DNA of 39,342 bases from Lysobacterales bacterium CG_4_10_14_3_um_filter_64_11 (lineage in GTDB: Bacteria > Pseudomonadota > Gammaproteobacteria > Xanthomonadales > Xanthomonadaceae), in the NCBI GenBank assembly GCA_002782905.1, contig PFJA01000285.1:1-39342 (forward strand). Direction: 5' to 3'. The notes under the pieces were generated by a model, which made no database searches, was not told the origin of the DNA, and saw only the letters and a program-made list of their open reading frames with translations. Below, one piece after another: positions 23,633 through 30,016 of the stretch. Every line of letters begins with the position of its first letter. The first letter of the stretch is position 1. Made by a program: the position numbers and the translations under genes.

Positions 23633-23675
23633 CACGATGGGTAGAGCGCAACTGGGGACTGCGGAAAAGCAACTG

Positions 23676-24022
23676 CTCCGCAACAGACGCAAAAGGTGCG
23701 AATAACAGCGCTGGGTGGGCGGCTATGGGTTTCGTCGCGCGATGGGCAGGGATGTCCGAGTGCCGCGCAGCACATGGCGACGGCATGGGCAGATATTTTT
23801 TTCCATGCAAAATCCGCATTCCCCACGTCCGTGTGGATCATGCCGAAGGTACGACTCCATGGATGGAGGAGGCAGAGCCATGCAGGAGCAATTGCCGAGA
23901 GCACCAAAAGGAGGCGCTTTAGGCGACGCAGGAGCAGTTGCCGGATGGGCGAGAACGGCTACTACCCATCCTTCTACTGGCCCGTCGTGCTTTCCTTTGC
24001 GCAATTGGCGTCCTTGGCGGAC
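23676..24022. repeat. Degenerate inverted nonamer-repeat arms flanking an intergenic block
   Basis: The left arm (about 23676-23702, TCCGC...ACGCAAAA...GCG) and the right arm (23995-24022, CTTTGCGCAATTGGCG then TCCTTGGCGGAC) are diverged relatives of the two arms at 27629-27656 and 27700-27727. The two right arms, compared on the same strand, match at 23 of 28 positions. Here the arms enclose about 290 bases. The stretch 23592-24031 has no convincing gene; besides these arms it holds the hairpin after tonB, a GCATGG/CCATGC inverted repeat at 23783-23808, and the GGA-hairpin array. Confidence 0.5.
23855..23975 (+). ncRNA. Candidate Csr/Rsm-type RNA: array of GGA-loop hairpins
   Basis: Five adjoining stems by hand folding. 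H1 23855-23868: CTCCA/TGGAG, loop TGGA. H2 23871-23896: outer GGCA/TGCC and inner TGC/GCA, loop AGGA. H3 23898-23920: AGAGC·CC paired with GG·GCTTT, one mismatch, loop AAAAGGA. H4 23922-23942: GGCGAC/GTTGCC then GC/GC with one bulged A, loop AGGA. H5 23943-23971: GGATGGG/CCCATCC, 15-base loop, then TTCT, terminator-like. GGA in an apical loop is the hallmark of RsmA/CsrA binding sites in CsrB and RsmX/Y/Z RNAs. No clear promoter was found, and the short T-tract is weak. It lies between convergent tonB-like and pyrB genes. Prediction only. Confidence 0.45.
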
Positions 24023-24031
24023 CCAATGCTC

Positions 24032-26406: not shown

Positions 26407-27537
26407 TTACTTCGACTCCACCAGATCCACGCCATCCATGCCCTGCGACAGCGAGTGCGCATCGCCACCCTGACTGAGCTTGATCTTCAGACGCACCTCG
26501 TTGGTGCTGTCGGCGTAGCGCAGCGCGTCCTCGTAGGAAATTTCACCGGCCATGTACAGTTCAAACAACGCTTGGTCGAAGGTCTTCATGCCGAGGTTGG
26601 TCGATTCCTTCATCACCTCCTTGAGCTTGTGGATCTCGCCGTCGCGGATGTAGTCCTGCACCAACGGCGTACCCAGCAAAATCTCCATCGCCACCCGCCG
26701 CGCCTTGCCGTCGGGGGTCGGCACCAGTTGCTGCGCGACCACGCCCTTGAGGTTCAACGACAGATCCATCAACAACTGGTTGCGGCGATCTTCGGTAAAG
26801 AAGTTGATGATGCGATCCATCGCCTGGTTGGCATTGTTGGCGTGCAGGGTGGCCAGCACCAGGTGACCGGTCTCGGCGAATGCCACCGCGTGATCCATGC
26901 CCTCGCGGGTGCGGATTTCACCGATCATGATCACGTCCGGCGCCTGCCGCAGGGTGTTTTTCAGCGCCGCTTCCCAACTGTCGGTATCGATACCGACTTC
27001 GCGCTGGGTGATGATGCAGCCCTCGTGCTTGTGCACGAACTCGATCGGATCCTCGATCGTGATGATATGGCCCGATGAGTTCTGGTTGCGGTAACCGATC
27101 AGCGCCGCCAGCGAGGTCGATTTGCCGGTGCCGGTAGCGCCGACGAACAACACGATGCCGCGCTTGGTCATCGCCAGCGTCTTGAGTACCGGCGGCAGGT
27201 TGAGCTCATCGATGGTGGGGATGCGCGACTCGATCCGGCGCAACACCATACCGACCTGGTTGCGCTGATAGAAGCAACTGACGCGGAAACGGCCGACACC
27301 CGAGACGCCGATGGCAAAGTTGCACTCGTGGGTTTTCTCAAACTCCTCACGCTGCGCCGGGGTCATCACGTTCAGCACCAGATCGCGGCTCTGCTGCGGC
27401 GTCAAAGGGTTCTGCGTGATCGGCGCGATCTTGCCGTTGACCTTCATCGACGGCGGCACACCGGCGGTAACGAACAGATCGGACGCCTTTTTGTGCGCCA
27501 TCAATTTCAGATAAGAGGTGAAGTCGATGCTGCTCAT
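26407..27537 (-). CDS. pilU: Type IV pilus retraction ATPase PilU
   Basis: A PilT-paralogue motor of 376 residues, acting with PilT at the base of the pilus. Walker A GATGTGKST (133-141), the Asp box IITIEDPIEFVH, Walker B IMIGEIRTREGMDHA and the His box ATLHANNANQAMDRI. Start-region blocks (SDLFVTAGVPPSMKVNGKI) and the extended C-terminal tail beyond ~345 (EVRLKIKLSQGGDAHS...) mark it as PilU rather than PilT. Good ribosome site (GGAG, 8 bases before ATG). It lies 246 bp downstream of pilT, the gap being filled by the nonamer element. Confidence 0.95.
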   Translation of the reverse strand: MSSIDFTSYLKLMAHKKASDLFVTAGVPPSMKVNGKIAPITQNPLTPQQSRDLVLNVMTPAQREEFEKTHECNFAIGVSGVGRFRVSCFYQRNQVGMVLRRIESRIPTIDELNLPPVLKTLAMTKRGIVLFVGATGTGKSTSLAALIGYRNQNSSGHIITIEDPIEFVHKHEGCIITQREVGIDTDSWEAALKNTLRQAPDVIMIGEIRTREGMDHAVAFAETGHLVLATLHANNANQAMDRIINFFTEDRRNQLLMDLSLNLKGVVAQQLVPTPDGKARRVAMEILLGTPLVQDYIRDGEIHKLKEVMKESTNLGMKTFDQALFELYMAGEISYEDALRYADSTNEVRLKIKLSQGGDAHSLSQGMDGVDLVESK

Positions 27538-27628
27538 GGCGTTATCTCCATAAAGCCGGGACCCGGGACCGATGGGTTTCGCTGTGCTCTACTCATCCTA
27601 CGGACTCTGGGCTTGGGAAAAGCAAATG

Positions 27629-27727
27629 GTCCGCGAAACACGCAAAGTGCGCAAAGGAAAGTCCTTACCCGTGTTTGTGTTCTTTGTGTTCTTTGTGTTC
27701 TTTGCGTACTTCGCGTCTTTTGCGGAC
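27629..27727. repeat. Inverted nonamer-repeat element between pilT and pilU
   Basis: Left arm 27629-27656 and right arm 27700-27727 form an inverted repeat matching at 24 of 28 positions, each ending in GTCCGC. The arms themselves have a 9-base period. From 27674 the units are TTTGTGTTC three times, then TTTGCGTAC, TTCGCGTCT and TTTGCGGAC. The element would fold into one long hairpin. It lies in the pilT-pilU gap, so it may affect the ratio of the two messages. A diverged relative flanks 23676-24022. Confidence 0.75.
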
Positions 27728-27783
27728 ATCCGCTCTTTGCTTCTGTGTTGTTACGCTGGCTTTTCCGAGCCCCAGCCCCGGCA

Positions 27784-28821
27784 TCAATCGAACAACCGCT
27801 TGTCCTTGGCGTACTCGCGCGCCGACTGGCGTGTGATCAGGCCGCGTTTGACGATGTCCTGCAAACACTGGTCAAGGGTCTGCATGCCATATTGCTGCCC
27901 AGTCTGGATCGCGGAATACATCTGCGCCACCTTGTCTTCACGGATCAGGTTGCGGATCGCCGGCACGCCGACCATGATCTCGTGCGCCGCGACGCGGCCG
28001 CCGCCGACTTTCTTCAGCAGCGACTGCGACACCACCGCGCGCAGCGACTCGGACAACATCGAGCGCACCATCGGCTTTTCGCCGGCCGGGAACACGTCGA
28101 TGATGCGATCGATGGTCTTGGCTGCGGAGCTGGTATGCAAAGTGCCGAACACCAGATGCCCGGTTTCGGCGGCGGTCAGTGCCAGCCGGATGGTTTCCAG
28201 ATCGCGCAACTCACCGACCAGAATGTAATCGGGATCTTCGCGCAAGGCCGAGCGCAGCGCTTCATTGAAGCCGTGGGTGTCGCGGTGTACCTCGCGTTGG
28301 TTGATCAGGCACTTTTGCGAGGTGTGCACGAACTCGATCGGGTCCTCAACCGTCAGGATATGGCCGAACTCCTTTTTGTTGATGTGATCGACCATCGCCG
28401 CCAGCGTGGTCGACTTGCCCGAACCGGTCGGCCCGGTCACCAGAATCAGGCCCTGTGGCTGTTCGATCAACTCGCGGAACACCTTGGGCGCGGCCAGATC
28501 ATCGAGCGACAACACCTCGGATGGAATGGTACGGAACACCGCGCCAGCGCCACGATTTTGGTTGAAAGCGTTGACGCGAAAGCGCGCCAGGCCCGGTATT
28601 TCGAACGAGAAATCGACTTCCAGAAACTCTTCGTAGTCGCGCCGCGCCTTGTCCGACATGATGTCGTAGACCAGCGCGTGCACCTGCTTGTGATCAAGCG
28701 CGGGAATGTTGATCCGGCGAACGTCACCATCGACGCGGATCATCGGCGGCAACCCGGCCGACAAATGCAGGTCGGAGGCCTTGTTCTTTACTGAAAATGC
28801 CAGCAGCTCGGCAATATCCAC
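27784..28821 (-). CDS. pilT: Type IV pilus retraction ATPase PilT
   Basis: The hexameric motor that depolymerises pili and drives twitching, 345 residues. N-terminal PAS-like part (MDIAELLAFSVKNKASDLHLSAGLPPMIRVDG), Walker A GPTGSGKST (130-138), Asp box ILTVEDPIEFVH, Walker B ILVGELRDLETI, His box GTLHTSSAAKTIDRI and the retraction motif AIRNLIRE. The start is GTG at 28821, with GGGAG 7 bases upstream. Divergent from yggS, as in Pseudomonas. Confidence 0.97.
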   Translation of the reverse strand: MDIAELLAFSVKNKASDLHLSAGLPPMIRVDGDVRRINIPALDHKQVHALVYDIMSDKARRDYEEFLEVDFSFEIPGLARFRVNAFNQNRGAGAVFRTIPSEVLSLDDLAAPKVFRELIEQPQGLILVTGPTGSGKSTTLAAMVDHINKKEFGHILTVEDPIEFVHTSQKCLINQREVHRDTHGFNEALRSALREDPDYILVGELRDLETIRLALTAAETGHLVFGTLHTSSAAKTIDRIIDVFPAGEKPMVRSMLSESLRAVVSQSLLKKVGGGRVAAHEIMVGVPAIRNLIREDKVAQMYSAIQTGQQYGMQTLDQCLQDIVKRGLITRQSAREYAKDKRLFD

Positions 28822-29583: not shown

Positions 29584-29669
29584 CGCGCAACGCGGAATTG
29601 ATGGCTTTCGGTCGTCGGCGACGCGATACGCCACGGGTTTCGCCGTGATCGCAGTGAACCGGTTGAGGG

Positions 29670-29703
29670 CCCCGGGTTTCGGCCTTTCCTCAACCCGGGC
29701 TAC
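29670..29703 (-). repeat. GTAG REP, first of cluster
   Basis: CCCGGGTTTCGGCC ... TCAACCCGGGCTAC; read on the minus strand it begins with GTAG. It is followed by GGGGGGTTTTT (29705-29715), so the hairpin plus T-run may also end the yggS mRNA. Its left flank (GTGAACCGG, then GGGCC) is repeated before the third element at 29817. Confidence 0.7.
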
Positions 29704-29748
29704 CGGGGGGTTTTTGCCGTGCCGCGATGCCGGTTTGCGCGTGTTGTG

Positions 29749-29783
29749 GTAGCCCGGGTTAGGCCGCAGGCCGTAACCCGGGA
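29749..29783 (+). repeat. GTAG REP, second of cluster
   Basis: GTAGCCCGGGTTAGGCC ... GGCCGTAACCCGGG, in the opposite orientation to its two neighbours, giving a head-to-head arrangement typical of REPIN pairs. Confidence 0.7.
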
Positions 29784-29816
29784 TTTTGCGCGCGGCCGTG
29801 GTGAACGGGTGCGGGG

Positions 29817-29850
29817 CCCCGGATTTCGGCTTCGCCTCAACCCGTGCTAC
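29817..29850 (-). repeat. GTAG REP, third of cluster
   Basis: CCCCGGATTTCGGC ... CTCAACCCGTGCTAC. Together with its 20-base left flank it is a near copy of the first element. The remainder of 29584-30016, including 29851-30016, shows no gene. Confidence 0.65.
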
Positions 29851-30016
29851 CAGAGCCACCACGGCACGATGATATGGCGCGCTGGGATGAACCGGAAAAG
29901 CGATGCATTGCCGGGTAACACCCAACCACTGGACTGCTTCGTGCTGAACGGCAAGCGCTGCGCTGGCTATCGTGCGAATATCGCACTTTGCACCACGCAA
30001 CCGCCAAGAGCCGTCC

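Follow-up and report, generated by a model that had tools for sequence, protein, structure and literature searches.

A dispersed and probably mobile nonamer hairpin element nested in G-tract heptamer repeats between pilT and pilU of a Xanthomonadaceae genus

The pilT-pilU spacer and its repeats

The window, i.e. the whole stretch of 39,342 nucleotides that was analysed (contig PFJA01000285.1 of Lysobacterales bacterium CG_4_10_14_3_um_filter_64_11), encodes pilT and pilU on the minus strand. The spacer between the two genes contains an inverted repeat of 9-base units (NNCGCAAAG), set between the remnants of another repeat. The features are the following.

23667..24030, no strand: second, diverged member of the family, 364 bp, in the tonB-like/pyrB spacer, enclosing about 290 bp of other sequence
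26407..27537, minus strand: pilU, an open reading frame with homologues 88-91% identical in 80 named Xanthomonadaceae loci
27556..27570, no strand: left outer G-tract heptamer remnant CCGGGACCCGGGACC, outer arm of an older heptamer inverted repeat (from the sequence)
27571..27603, no strand: palindromic repeat module GATGGGTTTCGCTGTGCTCTACTCATCCTACGG amid the left heptamers, a GTAG-type REP by resemblance (from the sequence)
27604..27629, plus strand: A end, ACTCTGGGCTTGGG with AAAAGC and AAATGG, then TCCGC; conserved in copies as CTCGGG.CTCGGGAAAAGCAAATGG
27630..27661, plus strand: A arm of nonamers, TCCGCGAAACACGCAAAGTGCGCAAAGGAAAG; matches arm model R1 (described below) with E = 7.0e-12
27662..27697, no strand: middle, with TTTGTGTTC units (27674-27700); core of 97 bp, two 9-base units (18 bp) above the family's 79-bp class
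27698..27726, minus strand: B arm of nonamers, pairing with the A arm; HMM match at 27698-27730(-)
27727..27764, minus strand: B end, CATCCGCTCTTTGCTTCTGTGTTGTTACGCTGGCTTTT, conserved in subfamily I
27765..27782, minus strand: right outer G-tract heptamer arm CCGAGCCCCAGCCCCGGC, immediately after pilT (from the sequence); heptamer arrays occupy the same position in relatives
27784..28821, minus strand: pilT, an open reading frame with homologues in the 80 named Xanthomonadaceae loci

The original prediction described two 28-base arms, a 9-base unit present three times between them, and diverged relatives of the arms near 23676-24022. All of these are found: the arms lie at 27629-27656 and 27700-27727, with 24 of their 28 positions paired, there are three TTTGTGTTC units beginning at 27674, and both a repeat search and a profile search place the diverged arms at 23667-23699(+) and 23992-24030(-). 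The tonB-like/pyrB spacer has no nonamer arms in the three congeners G001, G002, and G003. At pilT-pilU, the conserved unit is longer than first noted (approximately 27604-27782) and includes AAAAGC/GCTTTT and the flanking heptamer remnants. The copy belongs to subfamily I, and its 97-bp core amounts to 79 bp plus 18, i.e. two extra TTTGTGTTC units. Its outer heptamer arms are degenerate (GGGACCCGGGACC before pilU and, on the coding strand, GGGGCTGGGGCTCGG beside the pilT stop) and are intact in the congeners, with (GGGACTC)n or (GGGACCC)n arrays at the left position in all three. The GATGGGTTTCGCTGTGCTCTACTCATCCTACGG module, assigned to the GTAG REPs (Di Nocera et al. 2013) by resemblance only, also adjoins other copies of the element. 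The B end has kin in the AGAGCAACAACGCAGAAGC tract (minus strand), which heptamer-only loci of G001 and G002 have as their core.

Across 80 named Xanthomonadaceae, the length of the pilT-pilU spacer varies between about 10 and 170 bp, and a G-tract heptamer inverted repeat (such as GGGATTC, GTGATTC, or GGGAATC) with an AARAGC-type motif inside is very common in it. These heptamers are the repeats of Rehm et al. 2015 (PMC4692102), who described GGGAATC-type heptamer (G-quadruplex) repeats in Xanthomonas and named pilU as repeat-associated. Spacers shorter than 90 bp (27 of the 83 examined, several of them of 10-20 bp) have no such structure; of those with at least 90 bp, 28 out of 56 fold with z < -3. 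The left and right halves of the spacer share 4.66 7-mers within the same genome, compared with a mean of 1.44 and a maximum of 2.64 in 2000 permutations, and this excess indicates that the left and right heptamer arms change together. In the 80 loci (L061-L140), the spacer arrays keep their left-right complementarity while the unit differs between species. An AARAGC-like motif lies on the inner side of 41 out of 73 G-tract heptamer arrays in the pilT-pilU and other spacers of these loci, against a background of 6%, and array and motif are found together in many genera besides Xanthomonas.

Among the congeners, the pilT-pilU spacer of G003 has heptamers and a nonamer core, as has the window with its degenerate heptamers, and that of G002 has only heptamers, fourteen units of them on one side. 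The G001 assembly is interrupted within a long array at this place, and no nonamer core is visible in what can be read to the left and right of the break. Around the break (end of contig C26 and start of C99; loci L215 and L216), one flank carries a dozen or more tandem octamers GTGGTCCC and the opposite flank GGGACCC heptamers. The original prediction held that the element splits a pilT/pilU operon and proposed a comparison of filled and empty gaps. The core does differ, being present in the window and G003 and absent from G002 and from the visible part of the G001 spacer, but the gap already holds the heptamer arms. Because a heptamer inverted repeat fills the spacer in many relatives, the nonamer element is nested in an older repeat and no tight operon was newly opened; the idea of a newly split operon is not supported.

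Copies, structure, and turnover of the nonamer family

Within its own 2.92-Mb genome, the element region returns 44 BLAST matches, the second best with E = 1.7e-21. We built a sequence-only model (R1) from 29 arms, which identifies 104 arms in the same genome (E ≤ 0.01) and at least 150, 81, and 91 in the three congeners. These counts rest on sequence searches and the loci listed. So many matches and arms show that the feature is not due to chance, and the search for further copies that had been suggested from the window thus found them in the genome and in its relatives. Five of 200 genomes of the order Xanthomonadales match R1 at E ≤ 1e-6: the own genome and four from genera g59 and g75 of another family, f11, the majority of which have many copies. 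Among 398 other genomes of the phylum there was one weak match. The 80 named Xanthomonadaceae loci (1.57 Mb) contain no nonamer arms and two unrelated period-9 arrays, and searches of plasmids and phages gave no match to the element. Viral contigs gave two exact pattern matches, one seemingly by chance in a coding-like stretch and one repeat-like. A 28.9-kb IMG/VR contig (IMGVR_UViG_3300042991_001436, L298) has a nonamer arm, GGTCCGCAAAGGACGCAAAGAGCGCAAAG, with repeat modules alongside. Searching the literature by sequence string returned only chance strings in unrelated papers, and the 9-mer family appears to be new, since we found no description of it in the literature searched.

The copies are stereotyped units spread over unrelated spacers. 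From TCCGC to GCGGA, the core measures exactly 79 bp in 17 of the 54 paired elements and 128-130 bp in another 7; some of these elements are orthologues across genomes, which leaves fewer independent sites, roughly 15 in the 79-bp class. Subfamily I has the order GGGACTCGGGAAAAGCAAATGG, 79-bp core, CATCCGCTCTTGCTTCTGCGTTGTTGCTCTGGCTTTTCCGAGTCCC, and its conservation stops within the heptamers at both sides. In subfamily II the right part differs, reaching about 55-60 bp beyond the core and lacking heptamers on that side. The 129-bp class contains a REP-like palindrome in the middle of the core, and longer copies enclose other palindromic modules. Heptamers flank 33 out of 44 elements in the genus and 1 out of 10 in f11, the other hairpins (11 and 9, respectively) being without heptamer arms. 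In the f11 genome G105, three loci (L271, L274, L280) are composite, with GGGACTC heptamers followed by GCAAAGGAC nonamers and with GTGCCCTC octamers at the far side; two of them add further short units, GAAGGAAGC-like or GCAAAGAAA-like, so that each locus holds several unrelated tandem units.

Across copies, A arms are identical to each other at 0.90 of positions and B arms at 0.85. The identity between A and B is 0.734 within a copy and 0.743 between copies. Since A and B are no more alike within than between copies, the arms are not kept matched in place and the unit is inherited whole, which rules out in-place palindrome homogenisation of the nonamer arms. Non-orthologous copies of G003 are up to 94.7% identical, whereas orthologues between the own genome and G003 are only 76-86% identical, indicating that, once the two had split, copies in G003 either spread or became homogenised.

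We traced ten copies of the own genome and ten of G003 into the other congeners via the flanking DNA, and read the synteny of the window directly. Presence, orientation, or inner cargo varies among congeners at about 20 orthologous spacers. The own L009 site has no nonamer arms in any of the three relatives. Some sites are almost empty in one relative (L011 in G003, 20 bp vs 230; L026 in G002, 33 vs 452), and at L224 and L228 the whole units of G003 have no counterpart in the other three genomes. Orthologous copies are inverted relative to each other at L006 (own vs G003) and L234 (G001 vs G003), and at L026 the own genome and G003 have common arms and different inner cargo. At four sites where relatives carry a nonamer core we found heptamer arms with a short core: L006 (in G001), L230 (G001 and G002), L229 (G002), and L234 (G002). 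The short core, which in several of these is AAAAGCAAGAGCAACAACGCAGAAGCAAAAGC or close to it, is similar to the element's B end. The 'empty' spacers are often filled with other repeats, mainly palindromic REP-like modules, and for this reason no clean insertion junctions were found at the traced sites. As the congeners diverge by around 16% in aligned DNA, old losses are hard to separate from new gains.

Other repeats turn over as well. In the spacer upstream of proC (window 29587-29963), the window has palindromes of the CCCGGGTT type, G003 has a nonamer element, and G001 and G002 have single nonamer-like arms together with other repeats, so that four genomes show four repeat contents. Palindromes of the CACAGGGTGGGCTCCTACA or GTCGGGTTA type adjoin RAYT-type genes of the congeners (L173, L176, L179), and in several places where the congeners carry such palindromes the window genome has CCCGGG-type modules.

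Possible routes of spread and effects on pilT and pilU

In our view, the feature is likely to be one member of a non-coding, non-autonomous family dispersed in a Xanthomonadaceae genus, in which whole units would spread and cores would be swapped. This agrees with the original prediction, which preferred a non-autonomous dispersed element to an ordinary terminator and is supported by the many copies, their stereotyped length, the presence/absence polymorphism, and the lack of a U-run after the stem. The nonamer element is probably mobile. Its unit would span around 130-180 bp, both ends being formed by G-tract heptamers plus AAAAGC; the hairpin that they enclose would have two distinct short nonamer arms and a middle that may house other palindromic repeats. 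The simplest reading of the sequences is a nest in which heptamer arms would enclose a short core, this core a nonamer hairpin, and the hairpin REPs.

Two routes may be at work. Whole units would reach new spacers via a mobilising enzyme, and recombination between common heptamer arms could bring cores in or take them out, in either orientation, including at pilT-pilU. Arrays of 9- and 7-base units would grow by slippage, the window copy being an example. An exchange of cores via shared arms would explain the orientation flips and the absence of target duplications. It cannot explain all copies, because only 33 of the 44 elements in the genus and 1 of the 10 in f11 are flanked by heptamers, and another route is needed for the rest. 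We find rather doubtful the more radical version in which heptamer arrays with their inner AARAGC are cassette ends, or lasting docking sites, and cores are exchanged and flipped between loci by array recombination without any classical transposase.

A MITE moved in trans by a DDE or other transposase, the terminal inverted repeat of which is the heptamer plus AAAAGC, is a specific form of the best explanation, minus core swapping. It is a reasonable possibility, if one short of probable: there are unit-like copies with inverted ends (GGGACTCGGGAAAAGC...GCTTTTCCGAGTCCC), and whole units are found where relatives are without nonamer arms (L224, L228, and the own L009 site). Yet k-mer matches (k from 4 to 9) at the flanks of 54 elements gave no sign of target-site duplication above permuted pairs, in a test limited by element boundaries that are uncertain because the ends are tandem arrays. 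Nor was an autonomous copy or parent transposon found at the two long-spaced arm pairs that we examined (L283 and L218), which contain ordinary genes or no domain, and no transposase. The enzyme might instead be a RAYT tyrosine transposase, acting on a REP/REPIN-like or TIRYT-type repeat. All four congeners have RAYT-type genes, long-TIR families tied to such enzymes are known (PMC3733652), and some copies contain REP modules. This alternative is already weakened and we deem it quite improbable, because nonamer arms are absent around the nine Y1_Tnp loci of the genus (in about 2-3.4 kb around each), some of which have other palindromes there, and because the arms are nonamer arrays instead of a short tagged palindrome.

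Two further explanations dispense with an enzyme. An origin of the repeats in place, by slippage and inverted duplication followed by drift, fits arrays that clearly grow by units (18 bp more in the window copy, at least 14 units in heptamer arrays). Exact common lengths, subfamily-specific ends, and identities of up to 94.7% between non-orthologous copies speak against such an origin, which we find highly improbable; it is refuted for the nonamer core as a whole and stays a contributing process. The structure could also be a local regulatory RNA hairpin or processing signal, selected to set the pilT:pilU ratio. The predicted minus-strand RNA of the element folds at -46 kcal/mol (z = -5.0, with 0 of 200 shuffles as good), many species have a hairpin in this spacer, and the arms of the heptamer versions change together. 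Such a role is nonetheless unlikely as the explanation of the element, for the nonamer family is dispersed over many unrelated loci, its arms are no more similar within a copy than between copies, the 27 short spacers lack such a structure, and half of the longer ones miss the z < -3 fold.

We rejected an intrinsic terminator, since there is a single weak match, no more than in shuffles, and no T run after the full stem. Rfam gave no match above the gathering score (best 21.9 bits vs 73). With no terminator tail and with pilU starting just past the repeat, the element at pilT-pilU most probably persists as a tolerated passenger within a transcribed spacer that has long hosted a hairpin. The most that its predicted RNA stem would do is to adjust the stability of the message or the pilU:pilT ratio.

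Relation to known repeats

What appears to be new here is the nonamer family, with its unusual nested layout; the outer heptamers are already known. The nested elements connect the Xanthomonas G-rich heptamer repeats with repeat units that turn over from one congener to another. Their ordered nesting (heptamers, nonamer hairpin, REPs) allows insertion order, core swaps, and flips to be read at each site. If true, the exchange of cores between array-bounded sites would amount to a transposase-free spread of spacer sequence.

The outer arms share with the repeats of Rehm et al. 2015 (PMC4692102) their neighbourhood, their intergenic G-tract heptamer arrays, often in convergent inverted pairs, and a variable number of units. 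They differ in that the arrays here are (GGGACTC)n/(GGGACCC)n, joined to AAAAGC, and surround other modules as well as a nonamer hairpin; the AAAAGC/AAGAGC motif is absent from the available portion of the text of that article. That study reported no general link of the heptamer repeats to mobile elements, and described them for Xanthomonas and not for other gamma-proteobacteria, whereas we find them across genera of Xanthomonadaceae. The nonamer core itself is not a repeat of this type, as its NNCGCAAAG units have a period of 9 and no G-tracts.

Like MITEs, the nonamer element is multi-copy, short, non-coding, and hairpin-forming, has terminal inverted repeats, and shows presence/absence polymorphism at orthologous sites. 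Unlike them, it shows no target duplication above chance, its ends are expandable tandem arrays, and its cores seem exchangeable; no parent transposon was found at the loci examined. It resembles GTAG/CGTC REPs and TIRYT-linked TIR repeats (Di Nocera et al. 2013, PMC3733652) in being an intergenic palindrome with a patchy distribution. We rejected its classification as a GTAG/CGTC REP, because the hairpin ends in TCCGC...GCGGA with AAAAGC outside, and it has neither tag. It also lacks the RAYT link of such repeats. REPs nested in other palindromes were described in the same work for Anabaena variabilis and Halothiobacillus neapolitanus; the nonamer element, in contrast to these REPs, is the container and not the nested part. 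Likewise, palindromic modules such as GTCATTGCGAGGAGCGAAGCGACGTGGCAATCC, of the RPE/CGTC type by resemblance, lie within some copies as cargo, whereas the nonamer element is their carrier.
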